From: Deltaproteobacteria bacterium
GTDB lineage: Bacteria > Myxococcota_A > Polyangia > Haliangiales > J016
Length of the DNA: 56,539 nucleotides
Reading direction: 5' to 3'
NCBI GenBank assembly: GCA_003696105.1
Contig: RFGE01000289.1
Span: forward strand, 1 to 56,539
Each line of letters begins with the position of its first letter. Position 1 is the stretch's first letter. The translations under genes were made by a program, and so were the position numbers. A model generated the notes under the pieces. It searched no databases. It was given only the letters and a program-made list of their open reading frames with translations, and was not told where the DNA came from. Below, piece after piece: positions 27,217 through 35,855 of this stretch.

Positions 27217-28050
27217 GTGCACGCGAAGCTCGACCGACTGCGCACGCTCATCGCCGACTACCGCAGCGCGCTGATCTGCTTTTCCGGCGGCGTCGACTCG
27301 ACGTTCCTGCTCAAGGTCGCCGTGGACGTGCTCGGCGACCGGTGCCACGCGCTCACCTGCGTGTCCGAAACGATGGCGGCGGCCGAGGTGGCCGACGCGC
27401 GCGCCCTCGGCGCCGAACTCGGCCTCGGTGACCGCCACCACATCGTCCACTCGCACGAACTCGACCGCCCCGGGTTTCGCGCCAACCCGGTCGACCGCTG
27501 CGCGATGTGCAAGACGGAGCTGATGGAACACGCCGAACCGCTCGCCGCGCAGCACGGTCTCGCCGCGATCGCGCTCGGCACGAACGTGGACGACCTCGGC
27601 GACCACCGTCCGGGCATCGCGGCGGCGTCGAGCCGCGGCGCGGTCGCGCCGATGGTGGCCGCAGGTCTCACCAAGGCCGACATCCGCGCACTGTCGCGCG
27701 AACTCGGGCTTCGCACGTGGAACAAACCGCAGCTCGCGTGCCTGTCGTCCCGCTTCCCGTACGGCACCGAGATCACGCCGGAGCGGCTGCGCCAAGTGGA
27801 CGCGTTCGAACAGGGGCTGCGCGCGCTCGGTTTTTCTCAACTTCGGGTGCGGTTTCACGATACGATCGGCAAGGTGGAGCTGCTGCGCGACGAGATGGCC
27901 CGCGCGATCGATCTGCGAGACGACATCGTGGCCCTCGGCCGCCGGTGCGGCTTCACCTACGTCGCGCTGGATCTGGCCGGCTTCCGCTCGGGAGCCCTCA
28001 ACGAGGGCGCGCTCGTGACGCTGCGCGCCGGAGCTCCAAAGGCGAGCTGA
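27217..28050 (+). CDS. larE: ATP-dependent sacrificial sulfur transferase (LarE family)
   Basis: A 277-residue PP-loop enzyme. Seen: SGGVDST (23-29), the paired cysteines DRCAMCK (95 and 98), and Cys175 in KPQLACLSSRFPYG, at nearly the same position as the sacrificial Cys176 of Lactobacillus LarE. In lactate racemase maturation LarE gives its cysteine sulfur to a pyridinium cofactor. LarB and LarC are not next to it. The neighbouring Sat, TusA and CysO genes suggest a sulfur-donor role of a related kind. Leaderless GTG 27217; its stop overlaps the following DUF882 gene (TGATG). Confidence 0.88.
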   Translation: MHAKLDRLRTLIADYRSALICFSGGVDSTFLLKVAVDVLGDRCHALTCVSETMAAAEVADARALGAELGLGDRHHIVHSHELDRPGFRANPVDRCAMCKTELMEHAEPLAAQHGLAAIALGTNVDDLGDHRPGIAAASSRGAVAPMVAAGLTKADIRALSRELGLRTWNKPQLACLSSRFPYGTEITPERLRQVDAFEQGLRALGFSQLRVRFHDTIGKVELLRDEMARAIDLRDDIVALGRRCGFTYVALDLAGFRSGALNEGALVTLRAGAPKAS

Positions 28051-29905: not shown

Positions 29906-30837
29906 CGCCGCCGCCAGCGGATCTTCCGTCGGGCAACAACGCGACCGCGCGGCGGTGGGCGGCGATCCTGCGCGAACTCGGCCACCGGCCGCGCCTGCGC
30001 TGGGACGATGCGCCGGGCGACGCCGACCTGCTGATCGCCCTGCACGCGGTCAAGACGCGCCGCGCGCTGCTCGCGTTCCGCCGCGCGCACCCGGACCGGC
30101 CGGCCGTCGTCGCGCTCACCGGCACGGACATCTACGGCCGGCGAAATCTCGCGCCGGCGCTCGACGCCGCAACCTTCATCGTGGCCCTTCAGCCGCGCGC
30201 GCTGACCGCGCTGTCGCGCGCGCACCGCGTCAAGGCGCGGGTCATCTTTCAGTCTGCCGAGCCGCCTCGCGCGCTGCCGGCGAAGCCATCGCGCGAGTTT
30301 CGCGTCGCGGTCGTCGGCCACCTGCGCGCGGTCAAGGACCCCCTGCGCACCGCGCTGGCCGTGCGCGAACTTCCGGAGGACTCGCGCATCGTCGTGCGCC
30401 ACGCCGGCCGGGCGCTGTCGGAGTCGTTCGCGCGCCGGGCGCGTGCCGAAATGGACCGCAACCCGCGCTACCGGTGGCTCGGAGAACTCACGCCGGGCCG
30501 CGTGCGCCGTCTGATCGCGTCGAGCCACCTGGTCGCGATCACGTCGCTGGCCGAGGGCAGCTGCAACGTGTTGTCCGAAGCGCTGGCGGCGCACACTCCG
30601 GTGGTCGCAACGCGCATCCCGGGACTGATGGGCACGCTCGGCGCGCACTACCCGGGCTACTTTCGCCCGCGCGACACCCGCAAGCTCACCCGCTTGCTGC
30701 GCCGCGCGGAAGGCGACGCCGCGTTCTACCGACAGCTGGCCGCCGCGTGCCGGCGCGCGACGCCGCTGGTCGATCCCCGCCGCGAACGCGCCGCCTGGCG
30801 GGCGCTTCTCGCCGAACTCGCCGCTCGGAGGCCGTAG
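29887..30837 (+). CDS. senB: Selenosugar synthase SenB (TIGR04348-type glycosyltransferase)
   Basis: A 316-residue GT-B type glycosyltransferase. Family features: MRVDLVAPPPADLPSGNNAT at the start, ADLLIALHAVKTRRAL, VALTGTDIYG, and the C-terminal donor site TSLAEGSCNVLSEALA. SenB couples selenophosphate with a UDP-sugar to give a selenosugar used by SenA. It overlaps senA by 19 bases. The selenophosphate synthase SenC (SelD), the third gene of known sen clusters, is absent nearby. The last codons and the TAG stop lie inside the left inverted repeat of a MITE-like element. Confidence 0.87.
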   Translation: MRVDLVAPPPADLPSGNNATARRWAAILRELGHRPRLRWDDAPGDADLLIALHAVKTRRALLAFRRAHPDRPAVVALTGTDIYGRRNLAPALDAATFIVALQPRALTALSRAHRVKARVIFQSAEPPRALPAKPSREFRVAVVGHLRAVKDPLRTALAVRELPEDSRIVVRHAGRALSESFARRARAEMDRNPRYRWLGELTPGRVRRLIASSHLVAITSLAEGSCNVLSEALAAHTPVVATRIPGLMGTLGAHYPGYFRPRDTRKLTRLLRRAEGDAAFYRQLAAACRRATPLVDPRRERAAWRALLAELAARRP

Positions 30838-31002
30838 CGGATAGGCGCTGGCTGCGGTCGCGATCTGCGGGCGATCGTCGGCGTACGTCCTCGCGCCCTT
30901 CGGCAACGTAGGATTATACGCGCCCTCGCGCGCTGCGGGCGCGCGCCGAACCTCGCCTCGCATCTCGCAACCTCGCTGGCGCGCCCATACGCAACGGCCT
31001 CC
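30827..31002 (-). mobile_element. MITE-like element, copy 1 (176 bp)
   Basis: A non-coding 176-base element with terminal inverted repeats beginning GGAGGCCGT. It is the reverse complement of the copy at 51513-51688; by eye about 18 mismatches and no gaps (about 90% identity), with identical length. The right end is followed by TA (31003-31004); the left is preceded by TC, probably a mutated TA duplication. This fits IS630/Tc1-type insertion at TA. It carries the stop codon of senB and its edge forms the TAG stop of the cytochrome gene. No transposase is encoded. Confidence 0.8.
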
Positions 31003-32252
31003 TACCGGCACGTGAAGTCGACCGCGTCGACGTGGCAGCGCAGGCACATGCGCCCGGCGCGCGCGGCGAGCGCCCGGCACCGGCGACTCGTCGCCCATCC
31101 GGCCGGATGCGGATTCACGCGATAGGGATTGCCCGGCTCGGCCGAGTGGCACGTGGTGCAAAACGGTTCGCGGTGGCAACTCGCGCACTGGCGAATGTTG
31201 CGCTGGGCCTGGACGGCGTGGTGGTTCGGGCCGCGCGCACCGAACGTCGCCCACCCGTCCGGGTGGAACCGCCGCGAGCCGTCGCCGGTGAGAAACGCGC
31301 CGGCGAACTCGCTCCCCTTGCGGCCACCGCCCTCGACCGGGTCGTAGGACCAGCCGACGCCGGTGCGGCCGTGGCAGCCGACGCAGAAGGTCTGCAGCCG
31401 GTGACACGCCGAGCAGTCGGGGTTGTTGCGCCGCGCATCGATCGCGTGGATCGACACGTAGTCGTTGCCGTGAAAGTCCATCGGCTTCGCCGTGCCCTGA
31501 TGGCAGTCGATGCAAAACGCCTTGTGGTGGCAGTTGTCACAATACGCCGCGTCCTGCTTGGCCACCGCCGCGTGGCGCGTGCGAAACGACAGGTCGTGCG
31601 CGTCGCCGCGCAACACGCCGGACGGCTGAAGCAGCCCTTCGGCGAACGCGGTCTGGATGCGGCCGTCGCCTTCGGCGAGGTGACAGGTCGTACATGCATC
31701 GGTCGCCGTTCGTCCATCGTGGCACTGCAGGCACAGTCGCATGCGCGGCAGCTGGTCGCGCGTCGCGAGGTCGACGCCGTCGGCCAGCAGGTCGCCGTGA
31801 CACGTCTGGCAGCTGATTTTCCGGCCGACGTGCGCCCTGTGGTTGAACTTGAGATTGGGCGCCGGCACGACGACGCGCGCGACCGCCCCGCCCGCGGCGA
31901 ACCCAGGATGGCATGCCGCGCACGCCGCCGGCGGCTTGCCGGCCGCGACCGGCTTGGTCGGCTGGTCGCGGTCGATCGCGTGGCACATCGCGCACACGTC
32001 CTCGCCGGGCATCAGGTTGTCGAGCGACGACGTCGACTCCGCGGCGTCCTCGTGGCAGAAGTCGCAGTCGACGCTGCCGAGGCGCAGGTGGCGCGCGTGC
32101 GAGAAACGAAGCGGCAGCGACTGCGGCGGGAACACGACCTCGGACACCGGTTGCCGCGCAAACTCCGCGAGCCGCGGCGCGCCGGCGCGCGCCGCCGACC
32201 AGACCGCCACGGCAACGCCGACGGCGACGCCGAGCGAGGCTGCCCGCTGCAT
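31002..32252 (-). CDS. Multiheme c-type cytochrome (13 CXXCH motifs)
   Basis: A 416-residue periplasmic protein with a signal peptide ending ARAG and thirteen CXXCH heme-binding motifs, from CDFCH and CAMCH near residue 65 to CLRCH near the C-terminus, with additional histidines for bis-His ligation. Such proteins carry electrons across the periplasm. The ATG overlaps the stop of the upstream barrel gene (ATGA). This suggests a porin-cytochrome conduit across the outer membrane, as in Mtr/Pcc systems, though the heme count differs from the ten of MtrA. The TAG stop is formed at the junction with the MITE-like element. Confidence 0.93.
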   Translation of the reverse strand: MQRAASLGVAVGVAVAVWSAARAGAPRLAEFARQPVSEVVFPPQSLPLRFSHARHLRLGSVDCDFCHEDAAESTSSLDNLMPGEDVCAMCHAIDRDQPTKPVAAGKPPAACAACHPGFAAGGAVARVVVPAPNLKFNHRAHVGRKISCQTCHGDLLADGVDLATRDQLPRMRLCLQCHDGRTATDACTTCHLAEGDGRIQTAFAEGLLQPSGVLRGDAHDLSFRTRHAAVAKQDAAYCDNCHHKAFCIDCHQGTAKPMDFHGNDYVSIHAIDARRNNPDCSACHRLQTFCVGCHGRTGVGWSYDPVEGGGRKGSEFAGAFLTGDGSRRFHPDGWATFGARGPNHHAVQAQRNIRQCASCHREPFCTTCHSAEPGNPYRVNPHPAGWATSRRCRALAARAGRMCLRCHVDAVDFTCR

Positions 32253-33958
32253 CACGGCACCTCCGGGTGGAACGCGAGGTCGAGCACGGCGAGCACGCGC
32301 AATTGGCGCCGGTCGAGCCGATTGTAGTTGTCCTCCACCGTGGCGTGCGCGGCGATGCCGGGCGCAATGCGATAGGTCGCGCCGAGTTGGCCGCCGAACG
32401 ACGTGGCGCGGCGGCGCTCGATCAGTTCGTCGTCGAAGCGTACGACGCTCACGCGCGACGCGACGTCCCACGCGCCGGTCAGCCGCCACCGCGCAGACGC
32501 GAACCCGCCGGCGCGCCGGCCGCCGTAGCCGTCTTCCCAAAACAGGTCCAGGCGCGCGTATGACCACGGGCTCGCGCGGTACCGGCCGCCGGCGTGCGCG
32601 CCCAGCGCAGTGCCGCCACCGTCGCCGGCCGGCGCGGCGTCCTCGGTTCCGTACGCGCGCAACCACCCGCGCACGTACCCCGACAGCGCGCTCGCGTCGG
32701 GCGCCAGTTCGTACGTGAGGCGGGCATCGTGGTACGGCCGCGTCGAGAACACGTTGAAGATCGAGTCGCCGTCGAACGTGGGGTACGAGTAGAAGTACTC
32801 GGGCGACAGCCGGTGCGCGCCCCACTGCAGCTGCACGCCGGCGAGTGCCTCGTCGATCAGCCCGTGCAGCAGGCTGTAGCGAGCCGCCGCGAACGTTGCC
32901 ACCTGCCCGGCGCCCCGCGCCAGCCGTCGCACGTAGCGGGCCGACGTGGACACGCGCTCCTCGTTGACGCCCCAGCCGGGCGCCTGGCCGCGCTCGTTCG
33001 GGTACAGCCCGCGATCGGGCGCGCCCATCGTCACCGCGCCGCCGATGAGCCCCGGCGTGCGCGATACCGACCGCCGATAGGACGCGCGCAGCACCACCGG
33101 GAGGTCGTCGGTCTCGATCGCGGCGCCGAACGTCGGCATCCATTCGTCCCGCTGCGGGCAGCGATCGAAGTCCGCCTCGAACGGATTGCCGCCGCCCGGC
33201 ACCGGGCGGTCGATGGGCCGCCACGATCCGGTGCCGGGCGCGACGCCTTCGACGTACTCGGGACATTCGCCGCCGGCCGTGCCGTCCGGCTCGAGGGTCG
33301 CGGCGGCGACCGGCGATGCGTCGCGCACGCGCATGCCGCCGAACGCCTCGATCGCGGCCCGCCAGGGCGTGTGGACGCGCACCGTCGCGCCGTCGAAGCT
33401 CCACCAGTCGAGCGTGTCGACCGCGAGCTGGCGGCCGACCGCGACATCCACGACGCCGGCGAGACCGCGCACACCGGCGTAGGCGTACAACACGTCGACC
33501 GCGAGGCTCGACGACTCCAGTTCCGGAATCAGATCGACGGCGTCGTATCGGTTGGCGTCGACGACGAGCGACCCGCCGGTGAAGCTGCCGAAGTCGTGGT
33601 CGATGCGCAGCCACGCCGTCACGTACACGTCGGGACCGGGGTCGAGCGCGGTGTCGTAGCGCAGTCGACGCGGCGGCCGGCCAATGTTCCAGATCGACAG
33701 CGACAGCGACTGCGTGAACCGCCGCCGTGCGAGTTCCGAGTCGCCCGACACGGGCCGTAGCCACCGAAGTGAGTAGCCCTGCCCGACGGTCAGCGCACGG
33801 ACCTCGAAGTCGTAGGCCCACGCCGGCGCGGCGACGGCGAGCGCAACCGCCGCCGCAGCCGCCGCCCACGCGCGCGGCAGCCCGCCCCGCGCCCGCTGCG
33901 CCGGCGCGGCGACCGCCGCCGTCCGTCGCCATTTCGGTTCGCCCGTGCGGCGCGCCAT
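32252..33958 (-). CDS. Outer-membrane beta-barrel protein, partner of the multiheme cytochrome
   Basis: A 568-residue protein: signal peptide ending AWA, then alternating polar and aromatic strands typical of a barrel (for example SLSLSIWNI, DVYVTAWLRID, ARLTYELAPD). It ends with a terminal strand VLAVLDLAFHPEVP. Two cysteines lie in one large loop (ECPEYVEG and DRCPQRDEW). Translationally coupled to the 13-heme cytochrome gene, so probably a sheath for it in the outer membrane, with a role like MtrB or PioB but shorter than MtrB; sequence similarity to those was not evident by eye. A promoter lies just upstream of ATG 33958. Confidence 0.82.
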   Translation of the reverse strand: MARRTGEPKWRRTAAVAAPAQRARGGLPRAWAAAAAAVALAVAAPAWAYDFEVRALTVGQGYSLRWLRPVSGDSELARRRFTQSLSLSIWNIGRPPRRLRYDTALDPGPDVYVTAWLRIDHDFGSFTGGSLVVDANRYDAVDLIPELESSSLAVDVLYAYAGVRGLAGVVDVAVGRQLAVDTLDWWSFDGATVRVHTPWRAAIEAFGGMRVRDASPVAAATLEPDGTAGGECPEYVEGVAPGTGSWRPIDRPVPGGGNPFEADFDRCPQRDEWMPTFGAAIETDDLPVVLRASYRRSVSRTPGLIGGAVTMGAPDRGLYPNERGQAPGWGVNEERVSTSARYVRRLARGAGQVATFAAARYSLLHGLIDEALAGVQLQWGAHRLSPEYFYSYPTFDGDSIFNVFSTRPYHDARLTYELAPDASALSGYVRGWLRAYGTEDAAPAGDGGGTALGAHAGGRYRASPWSYARLDLFWEDGYGGRRAGGFASARWRLTGAWDVASRVSVVRFDDELIERRRATSFGGQLGATYRIAPGIAAHATVEDNYNRLDRRQLRVLAVLDLAFHPEVP

Positions 33959-33965
33959 CGGGGCG

Positions 33966-33995
33966 ATGCTAGGGGCCGGTCACCGGGGCGGGCAA
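33966..33995 (-). promoter_or_regulatory. Promoter of the barrel-cytochrome operon
   Basis: On the minus strand TTGCCC (33990-33995), 18 bases, TAGCAT (33966-33971). The -10 box ends seven bases before the ATG at 33958, so a leaderless start is predicted. Confidence 0.5.
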
Positions 33996-34006
33996 CATTT
34001 CTGCGC

Positions 34007-34012
34007 TATGCT
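34007..34012 (+). promoter_or_regulatory. -10 box of the 34020 lipoprotein gene
   Basis: TATGCT, ending seven bases before ATG 34020. It is divergent from the barrel promoter, 35 bases away. This favours ATG 34020 over the in-frame ATG 34008, which overlaps the box. Confidence 0.4.
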
Positions 34013-34019
34013 GCCGGCG

Positions 34020-35855
34020 ATGCGCCTGTGTGCGATCGGACTGGCCGCCGCGACGGCGGTCATCGCGCTCGCAGCCTGTCCCCGCGCGCCGGCGCGGCCG
34101 CGATCGCCGTCCGCGGCGCTCGACCGCGACCTCGCGGCGCTCGCGATTCCGCCGCGCGACGACACGGCGACAGCGCTCGCCCGGCTCGACCGCCTGGCGG
34201 AGTCCGGCCACATGCGCGCGGCGTGGGAGCGGCTGCACTACCTGATCGATCTGTTCGACGACGCCCGCTTCCGCCGGTCCGACGACAGTCGCGCGCTGCT
34301 CGTGCGCGCCCTCCGGTTCCCGGACGACGCGCCGACCCGCGGACCGCGCGCGACCGATCGCGCGGTCGCGGCCCTCCTCGTCGAAGCCGACCGGCTTCTC
34401 GCCGCGAAGCGGTTGCACCGCGGCGGCCAGGCGGCCCGCACGCTGCTGGAAATCGACGCGACGCCCGCGCAAACCGGCGCCGACCTGCTGCGCCAGGTGA
34501 TCGCGCTCAAGCGGATCGCGGCCGGCGGCGGTCCGCTCGCCGACAATGCGCGCCTGCGCCTGTTCGGCTTGTGCCGGACCGCGTTCGCCGACGCCGTCCG
34601 GGCGCCGCGGCCGCGACGTGCCGCGATGATCGCGCGGTGCCTGTACCCGCTGTACGACGCCGATCCGGCGCCCTACTTCGCGGCCGACCCGCGCGACAGG
34701 CCGCCGCTGCCCCGGTGGGCCGACCTGGCCGAGCGCGCGTCCGCGCTCGCGAACCAGATCGCGGCCGGCACCGGGCGGCTGGCGCGCGCGGGCCGCGCGG
34801 TCGCCGACCAATGGCGCGCGTTCTTGGCCGACCACGAGCGCGACCTGCCCGCCCCGCTGTCGCCGGCCGCCCTCGGCCTGCCACACGTCGACCGCGCGGA
34901 ACCGCTCGGCGCCGAGCGCGTGTTCGCCTTCGGCGACGGCCGCCCCGTGCCGGACCGAGATGCGCTCGCGAGCAGCGTCCGCGCGGCGTTGGCCGAAGAC
35001 GGGACCGACGCGGTCGCCATCGCGCTGCCCGGCACCGCGCGCGCCGATGCGCTCGTGGACATCGCCGCGGCGTTGGCCGCGGCCGGCGCGCGGCGCATCG
35101 ATCTTGCCGTCGCGGCGACGCGCCGCCTCGACGCGCCCCCGGGGGACTACTGGCACGGGCGCACCGACCACGGTCGCGTCGATGTCGTCGCCGTGCTGCC
35201 GGTATCGCTCGCTCTCATCGCGACCGGCGCGCGCGGCCGCTCGGATGCAGGAAGGCGGTTCGACTGGGACCCGCGGCGTGCGACGTTGCAATTGCATCTC
35301 GTCGTGACCGCGCGCACCTGGTCGCTCGTCGCGCCGGACGGCGCGATCGCGGCGATCGACACGTCGGCCGATCCGGCCTCCGCGCTCCGCCGCGCACTCG
35401 AGCGCGTCCGCCTTGCGTTCCCCGACGAGGCCGGCCTCGCGGTCGTGCTCGGCCCCGACGCCACCTACGCGGCGACCGTCGCCGCGATCGCGGCGGCGCG
35501 CCACACCGCCGACGGGCGGCCGCTGTTTCGGCGCATCGCGCTGGCTGCCGCCGCACCGACGCCGCGGCGCGGCGGCCTCGCGCAGCGGATCGACGCGCGC
35601 GCGAGCGCCGCGGTCGACATCGAGCCCCCCGCGCTGGCCGCGCGCGTCGCCGCAGCCCGACGCTGCTACCTGGACGTCGTCGACCGGTCGCCGACCGCGG
35701 CCGGCAGCGTGCGCGTCGAACTGCGCGACGGCGCGCCGGCGGCGGTGGCCGGCGCGGCCGACCCGGCCCTTCGCGCGTGCGCCGTCGACGCGCTCGCGGA
35801 GGCGATGCGCAACCAAGCCATCGAAAGCGCGGTCGTCACGTTCCGGCGGCGGTGA
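34020..35855 (+). CDS. Large lipoprotein with ExbD/AgmX-like C-terminal features
   Basis: A 611-residue predicted lipoprotein (lipobox LAAC). The N-terminal half is helical and rich in Ala, Arg and Leu. The second half contains strand-helix units such as DAVAIALPGTARADALVDIA and LAVVLGPDATYAATVAAIAA, reminiscent of ExbD periplasmic domains. It ends with CYLDVVDRSPTAAGSVRVEL and a late Cys, a pattern like the C-terminal domain of AgmX/TonB-type proteins. These similarities are weak and no function is assigned. It is divergent from the barrel operon and convergent with the Kelch lipoprotein, with 9 bases between stops. Confidence 0.7.
   Translation: MRLCAIGLAAATAVIALAACPRAPARPRSPSAALDRDLAALAIPPRDDTATALARLDRLAESGHMRAAWERLHYLIDLFDDARFRRSDDSRALLVRALRFPDDAPTRGPRATDRAVAALLVEADRLLAAKRLHRGGQAARTLLEIDATPAQTGADLLRQVIALKRIAAGGGPLADNARLRLFGLCRTAFADAVRAPRPRRAAMIARCLYPLYDADPAPYFAADPRDRPPLPRWADLAERASALANQIAAGTGRLARAGRAVADQWRAFLADHERDLPAPLSPAALGLPHVDRAEPLGAERVFAFGDGRPVPDRDALASSVRAALAEDGTDAVAIALPGTARADALVDIAAALAAAGARRIDLAVAATRRLDAPPGDYWHGRTDHGRVDVVAVLPVSLALIATGARGRSDAGRRFDWDPRRATLQLHLVVTARTWSLVAPDGAIAAIDTSADPASALRRALERVRLAFPDEAGLAVVLGPDATYAATVAAIAAARHTADGRPLFRRIALAAAAPTPRRGGLAQRIDARASAAVDIEPPALAARVAAARRCYLDVVDRSPTAAGSVRVELRDGAPAAVAGAADPALRACAVDALAEAMRNQAIESAVVTFRRR

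Follow-up and report, generated by a model that had tools for sequence, protein, structure and literature searches.

A conserved barrel and 13-heme cytochrome gene pair in Myxococcota as a candidate two-component porin-cytochrome conduit

A gene for a multiheme c-type cytochrome that overlaps a gene for an outer-membrane β-barrel raises the question of whether the two products carry electrons across the outer membrane. Such a pair lies at 31002-33958 of the window analyzed here, a stretch of 56,539 bases that is the entire contig C289 of a 5.34-Mb, 98%-complete Myxococcota genome. A preliminary description proposed that a barrel and a 13-heme cytochrome form a new porin-cytochrome conduit at this position. 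Both open reading frames (ORFs) are present, and the cytochrome has exactly 13 CXXCH motifs in 416 residues. From the sequences, the predicted barrel structure and the comparison with relatives, the pair is probably a two-component outer-membrane porin-cytochrome conduit that lacks an extracellular cytochrome of its own and works like Pcc and Mtr systems. This reading is supported by the pairing of the two genes at 59 of 60 loci, by the prediction of a 22-stranded barrel, and by homology to three-part systems with a large neighboring cytochrome.

Conservation of the gene pair

We examined 60 distinct two-gene loci, made up of 41 (36 of the main type and five of family f26) and a further 19. 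Left out of the counts are L058, which lies on the contig of L015, L018-L022 and L027-L029, which duplicate counted loci or are shorter versions of them, the distant match L017, and L124, a short repeat of L051. L070-L104 stand outside the 60 loci, and L102-L104 alone among them were used, for NrfD context. The barrel gene is directly upstream of the cytochrome gene at all loci except L121, which starts 52 bases upstream of the match, at a contig edge; at L016 the barrel end is detected solely by a wider barrel profile. An in-frame start overlaps the barrel stop at 39 of 40 loci checked, the exception being L034. Thirteen CXXCH are found in 55 of 57 full-length cytochromes, and 12 in the other two (L035 and L112). 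The pair is a conserved family, kept together through Myxococcota. Chance runs of CXXCH in the cytochrome are rejected on the same conservation.

In the genome collection, Myxococcota-type contigs yielded eight relatives, each with 13 CXXCH; the ninth match, L017, has 6. Full-length cytochrome matches (E <= 1e-68) occur in 42 of 56 near-relative genomes and in 63 of 235 genomes sampled from the whole phylum, both counted by hand from the list of matches, and cytochrome matches of any kind at E <= 1e-20 occur in 108 of the 235. The barrel family is single-copy in the genome of the window.

The preliminary description noted that no extracellular decaheme partner is nearby, and this is right for the contig: among all ORFs longer than 60 residues, in six frames of the whole window, none besides the cytochrome has even one CXXCH. 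In the flanks of the 60 loci, which were searched mostly for ~8 kb on each side and for less than 2 kb in some (e.g. L010, L011, L023-L026), there is no second cytochrome with at least five CXXCH (L014 has an ORF with four). The cytochrome itself has a cleavable signal peptide and no lipobox Cys, as read by eye.

The overlap of the two genes was first described as ATGA, but the sequence is GTGATG and permits two other readings (Table 1). Co-transcription is plausible from the overlap alone. The single promoter named in the preliminary description is presumed; a scan of 30800-34200 found no sigma-70-like site.

A mobile or plasmid origin of the pair is not supported. Flanking genes for a kinase, a Kelch protein and a LarE-like protein recur near the pair in relatives, and the plasmid collection contains no relative of the barrel or the cytochrome. 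The product of the last of these genes (27217-28050(+)), which we take to be a LarE-like ATP-pyrophosphatase, has weak QueC and NAD_synthase matches. Seven other loci also have this gene close to the pair, though its role seems unrelated.

Table 1 Features of the barrel-cytochrome locus.
Feature	Position	Strand	Remarks
Outer-membrane β-barrel gene, 568 residues	32252..33958	-	ORF; signal peptide ends near residue 48; ~22 predicted strands
13-heme c-type cytochrome gene, 416 residues	31002..32252	-	13 CXXCH counted; Cytochrome_C7 E 4e-16
Barrel stop / cytochrome start overlap	32252..32255	-	Sequence GTGATG: GTGA with a GTG start, or one base (TGATG) with an ATG start
c7-type triheme unit 1	31899..32144	-	Residues 37-118, hemes 1-3; conserved distal-type His 52 and 55 only; from Pfam and PDB matches and His conservation
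c7-type triheme unit 2	31674..31859	-	Residues 132-193, hemes 4-6; conserved distal-type His 138 and 141 only; Cytochrome_C7, ActA and PpcA matches
Heptaheme core	31005..31640	-	Residues 205-416, hemes 7-13; distal-type His 219, 227, 261, 269, 330, 345 and 382
Most conserved barrel stretch, PTFDGDSIFNVF	32747..32782	-	Residues 393-404, loop between predicted strands 13 and 14

Architecture of the cytochrome and the barrel

The cytochrome is modular and is composed of two c7-type triheme units followed by a C-terminal heptaheme core. Cytochrome_C7 (PF14522) matches the N-terminal units only, with 59 bits against a curated cutoff of 24.8 and the best stretch at residues 135-191. In a profile search against PDB sequences, the same units match the ActA chains of alternative complex III (E 5.7e-18), and they also match PpcA-type c7 (E ~3e-6). 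The match to the NCBIfam family QrcA (E 2.4e-4) is far under the family cutoff.

The CXXCH motifs of the heptaheme core are laid out as three close pairs and one single. Seven further His residues of the core are near-invariant: among 51 sequences, six occur in every one and H345 in 49. This probably fits seven bis-His hemes, the ligands being assigned by conservation. The c7 units have just two conserved distal-type His per three hemes each. The third distal His, which PpcA carries, is missing in each unit (cytochrome residues 81-91 and 169-178), and each unit may therefore hold one heme that is five-coordinate or has a different ligand.

The core is common to seven-heme and three-part relatives. 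At three Bradymonadales-type f26 loci (L050, L052, and L066), the cytochrome has seven CXXCH and aligns to the C-terminal core, still following a barrel. In the tree, these cytochromes are sister to two 13-heme f26 cytochromes (99/83, 98/83), within the two-gene side. Their grouping beside 13-heme members implies that the seven-heme form arose by loss of the N-terminal six hemes. Since these three loci keep the core alone with a barrel, the heptaheme core is probably the part that sits in the barrel. A pilus-assembly-like operon lies near the pair at f26 loci L051, L052, L053, and L066; at L051 (L051:11575-19001), the one scanned with Pfam, it encodes three N-methylation-motif proteins and a PilY1-type protein.

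The three-part relatives form a sister clade of ten cytochromes from nine second-tier loci, a separate group in the tree (100/99). These loci were picked from weaker matches of the genome searches and are not a random sample. Every locus has another cytochrome, with 11-34 CXXCH, and a barrel is detected beside nine of the ten family cytochromes. The 34-CXXCH neighbor at L061, the sole large neighbor scanned, has Cytochrome_C7, class III, and MtrC/MtrF-like domains.

The barrel has no family match in Pfam, NCBIfam or PHROGs, and its profile finds nothing among PDB sequences. The AlphaFold2 model, made from seven sequences, has a predicted local distance difference test score (pLDDT) of 62.8 and a predicted template modeling score (pTM) of 0.63; 22 membrane strands were counted on it by eye. 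Structure comparison with Foldseek and VIA returns porin and TonB-receptor folds in PDB. In VIA-align, Z is ~14-16 to OccK/OpdK porins and TonB receptors, and the longest alignments (349-376 residues) are mostly to TonB receptors, which have 22 strands. MtrB, with 26 strands in its crystal structure, is absent among the Foldseek and VIA matches listed. A barrel of ~22 strands would have room for a folded plug of the sort found in TonB receptors, and a cytochrome inside it is therefore physically plausible. A pore too narrow for the cytochrome, which the preliminary description had named as a sign against a conduit, is not what the moderate model predicts. The other such sign, prediction of the cytochrome as a stand-alone periplasmic enzyme, was not obtained either.

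The most conserved stretch of the barrel is a loop (Table 1). Across 38 aligned two-gene barrels, conservation is 1.00 at P393, 0.95 at F395, and 0.97 at S399, I400, and F404. The motif P..F..SIF..F is largely common to the two-gene set (P393 in 38/38) and takes a looser form in the sister-clade barrels, and the strict pattern P.[FY].[GA]DS[IL][FW]N is found in 22 of the 38.

Comparison with known systems and alternative explanations

The closest published likeness is to Pcc clusters. In Shi et al. (2014, PMC4245776), two-gene Pcc clusters without an extracellular cytochrome gene are described for Anaeromyxobacter (Pcc group IV), a myxobacterial relative too, and for Candidatus Kuenenia. As here, a porin-like gene stands beside a gene for a periplasmic cytochrome, with 12-14 hemes; those cytochromes have 338-344 residues against 416 here, a comparison by description and not by sequence. 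Pcc porins are predicted there with 18-22 strands and Pcc periplasmic cytochromes with 5-14 hemes (PMC4245776). Thus, the remark that the cytochrome has more hemes than MtrA (10) is true yet not special. Our pair has the porin-like gene adjoining the cytochrome gene (59/60 loci) and, in a model of moderate confidence, a strand count in this range. An outer-membrane extracellular cytochrome is found neither in the window nor, at a threshold of at least five CXXCH, in the flanks of the 60 loci; this component does not define the Pcc kind, because the published Anaeromyxobacter and Kuenenia clusters also lack it. The Geobacter Pcc (OmbB-OmaB-OmcB) and ExtABCD-type conduits likewise have a barrel and a periplasmic multiheme cytochrome encoded together. 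The Geobacter Pcc combines an 8-heme periplasmic with a 12-heme outer-membrane cytochrome (as given in the same text, PMC4245776), whereas here there are 13 hemes and no adjoining outer-membrane cytochrome.

Most likely, the pair represents a new family within a kind of device that is already known, the published Pcc groups having been compared by description and not by sequence. The conduit proposed in the preliminary description is supported by the pairing, the barrel prediction and the three-part relatives, but it is new only as a family, because two-gene Pcc clusters have been in print since 2014 (PMC4245776). No description of the family was found in the open library searched, including passages of PMC11475568, PMC7399161, PMC4245776, PMC12133095, PMC6295460, and PMC10809760; supplements lay outside the search, and absence from print is not established.

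Several points weigh against a conduit. We infer complex formation, outer-membrane location, threading, electron transfer, its direction and its substrates. The barrel model is moderate, with pLDDT <50 at 218 of 568 residues, and the strand count may be off. The structure prediction for the cytochrome (nine sequences) is poor (pLDDT 52.5), and the model was not used. As only two distal-type His are conserved in each three-heme c7 unit, two of the 13 hemes may be unusual. The genome also encodes two heme-copper oxidases, so extracellular respiration is not obligatory for the host.

One alternative is a special case of a two-component conduit, and its probability overlaps with that given above: the conduit may work only with extracellular cytochromes encoded elsewhere, as a distributed three-part system. 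We regard this as possible but doubtful. The sister clade of the family is three-part, and two other contigs of the same genome, C353 (15 + 16 CXXCH) and C67 (13 + 15 CXXCH), have clusters in which a cytochrome with a lipobox-like start is followed by a β-barrel-like protein ending in Phe and then by a large cytochrome. However, these clusters have barrel-like proteins of their own, which the profile of the window barrel does not detect and which match no Pfam or NCBIfam family, and the searched flanks of the two-gene loci hold no cytochrome with at least five CXXCH.

The C353 cluster (L048:3670-9540(-)) consists of overlapping genes for the 15-CXXCH lipobox-like cytochrome, a 624-residue barrel-like protein, and cytochromes with 16 and 7 CXXCH. 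It is a second candidate porin-cytochrome cluster in the genome, apparently unrelated to the window pair. Divergent to it (L048:9600-15469(+)) are genes for a 753-residue protein with two cyclic nucleotide monophosphate (cNMP)-binding and several 4Fe-4S domains, and for a 1204-residue protein with four FHA domains, 6 CXXCH, and ferredoxin and FAD-oxidoreductase domains. This unusual fusion may feed electrons to the C353 cluster. The C67 cluster (L047:8379-13598(+)), a third candidate, encodes the 13-CXXCH lipobox-like cytochrome, the barrel-like protein, the 15-CXXCH cytochrome and a DUF481 outer-membrane protein.

We judge it quite unlikely that the cytochrome stores or carries electrons in the periplasm, or acts on its own as a multiheme enzyme, and merely shares a transcript with an ordinary uptake porin. 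The N-terminal hexaheme does resemble soluble c7 cytochromes and ActA/QrcA subunits, uptake porins are among the Foldseek matches of the barrel, and the heptaheme profile weakly matches hydroxylamine oxidoreductase (E 2e-5) and a nitrite reductase (E 0.0019). Against this reading, the barrel-cytochrome pairing is kept throughout the two-gene loci with one exception, and most related three-part systems keep it too; the near-invariant distal-type His for all seven heptaheme hemes argue against an open catalytic site there.

MtrAB, MtoAB, and PioAB also pair a multiheme cytochrome with a barrel, and MtrAB can conduct even without its extracellular partner (PMC4245776). These systems have 10 hemes and a PF11854 barrel with 28 predicted strands (PMC4245776), against 13 hemes and 22 strands here. 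MtrB_PioB (PF11854) matches neither the barrel nor any other protein of the genome. Judging by sequence, the barrel is not MtrB/PioB and the pair is not a member of Mtr/Pio. Thus, despite the like gene pairing and heme density and a weak match (E 0.04) of the N-terminal part to chain 6r2q_A, which we take to be MtrA, a divergent Mtr/Pio member is highly improbable, given also that a search up to E 10 finds no 6r2q_A match for the heptaheme core and that 22 strands contrast with 26-28.

Proposed mechanism and implications

In the two-component conduit, the barrel would form an insulating sheath set in the outer membrane. The heptaheme core, probably with all hemes bis-His, would lie inside the barrel and present its last heme at the outer mouth, and the N-terminal six hemes would form a built-in arm reaching into the periplasm. 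The arm would trade electrons with quinol-linked partners, e.g. an alternative-complex-III-type complex. ActA of alternative complex III and QrcA have c7-type units like those of the arm, but they are subunits of inner-membrane quinone complexes, whereas in the present cytochrome such units are fused to a heptaheme core, with a barrel encoded alongside. As no dedicated extracellular cytochrome is encoded beside the pair, the exposed end would either react with redox partners itself, whether soluble or solid, or dock to a cytochrome encoded elsewhere. Electrons could flow either way, in respiration to outside acceptors or in uptake from outside donors.

Candidate quinol-type complexes, for which the preliminary description suggested a search, are encoded in the genome. 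There are three NrfD proteins; a 5-CXXCH ActA-like ORF lies ~3 kb from the one on C300, and ORFs with 4 and 8 CXXCH lie near the one on C349. CymA/NrfH (PF03264) has no match over cutoff in the genome and one below it, and PF14522 matches occur on several other contigs.

A bolder form of the proposal, which we consider rather unlikely, is an unnamed, widespread Myxococcota conduit in which a single polypeptide spans from an inner-membrane quinol complex to the cell surface, the ActA-like arm docking an alternative-complex-III-type complex and the heptaheme core filling the 22-strand barrel. If so, electrons would pass without a periplasmic carrier or an extracellular cytochrome, in oxygen-respiring and sometimes predatory bacteria.

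Discussions of extracellular electron exchange usually concern specialists in metal respiration. The candidate conduit family described here, with a barrel that Pfam and NCBIfam do not recognize, is found in 63/235 phylum-wide and 42/56 near-relative genomes. Should the pair conduct, many myxobacteria of soils and sediments would be able to trade electrons with their surroundings.

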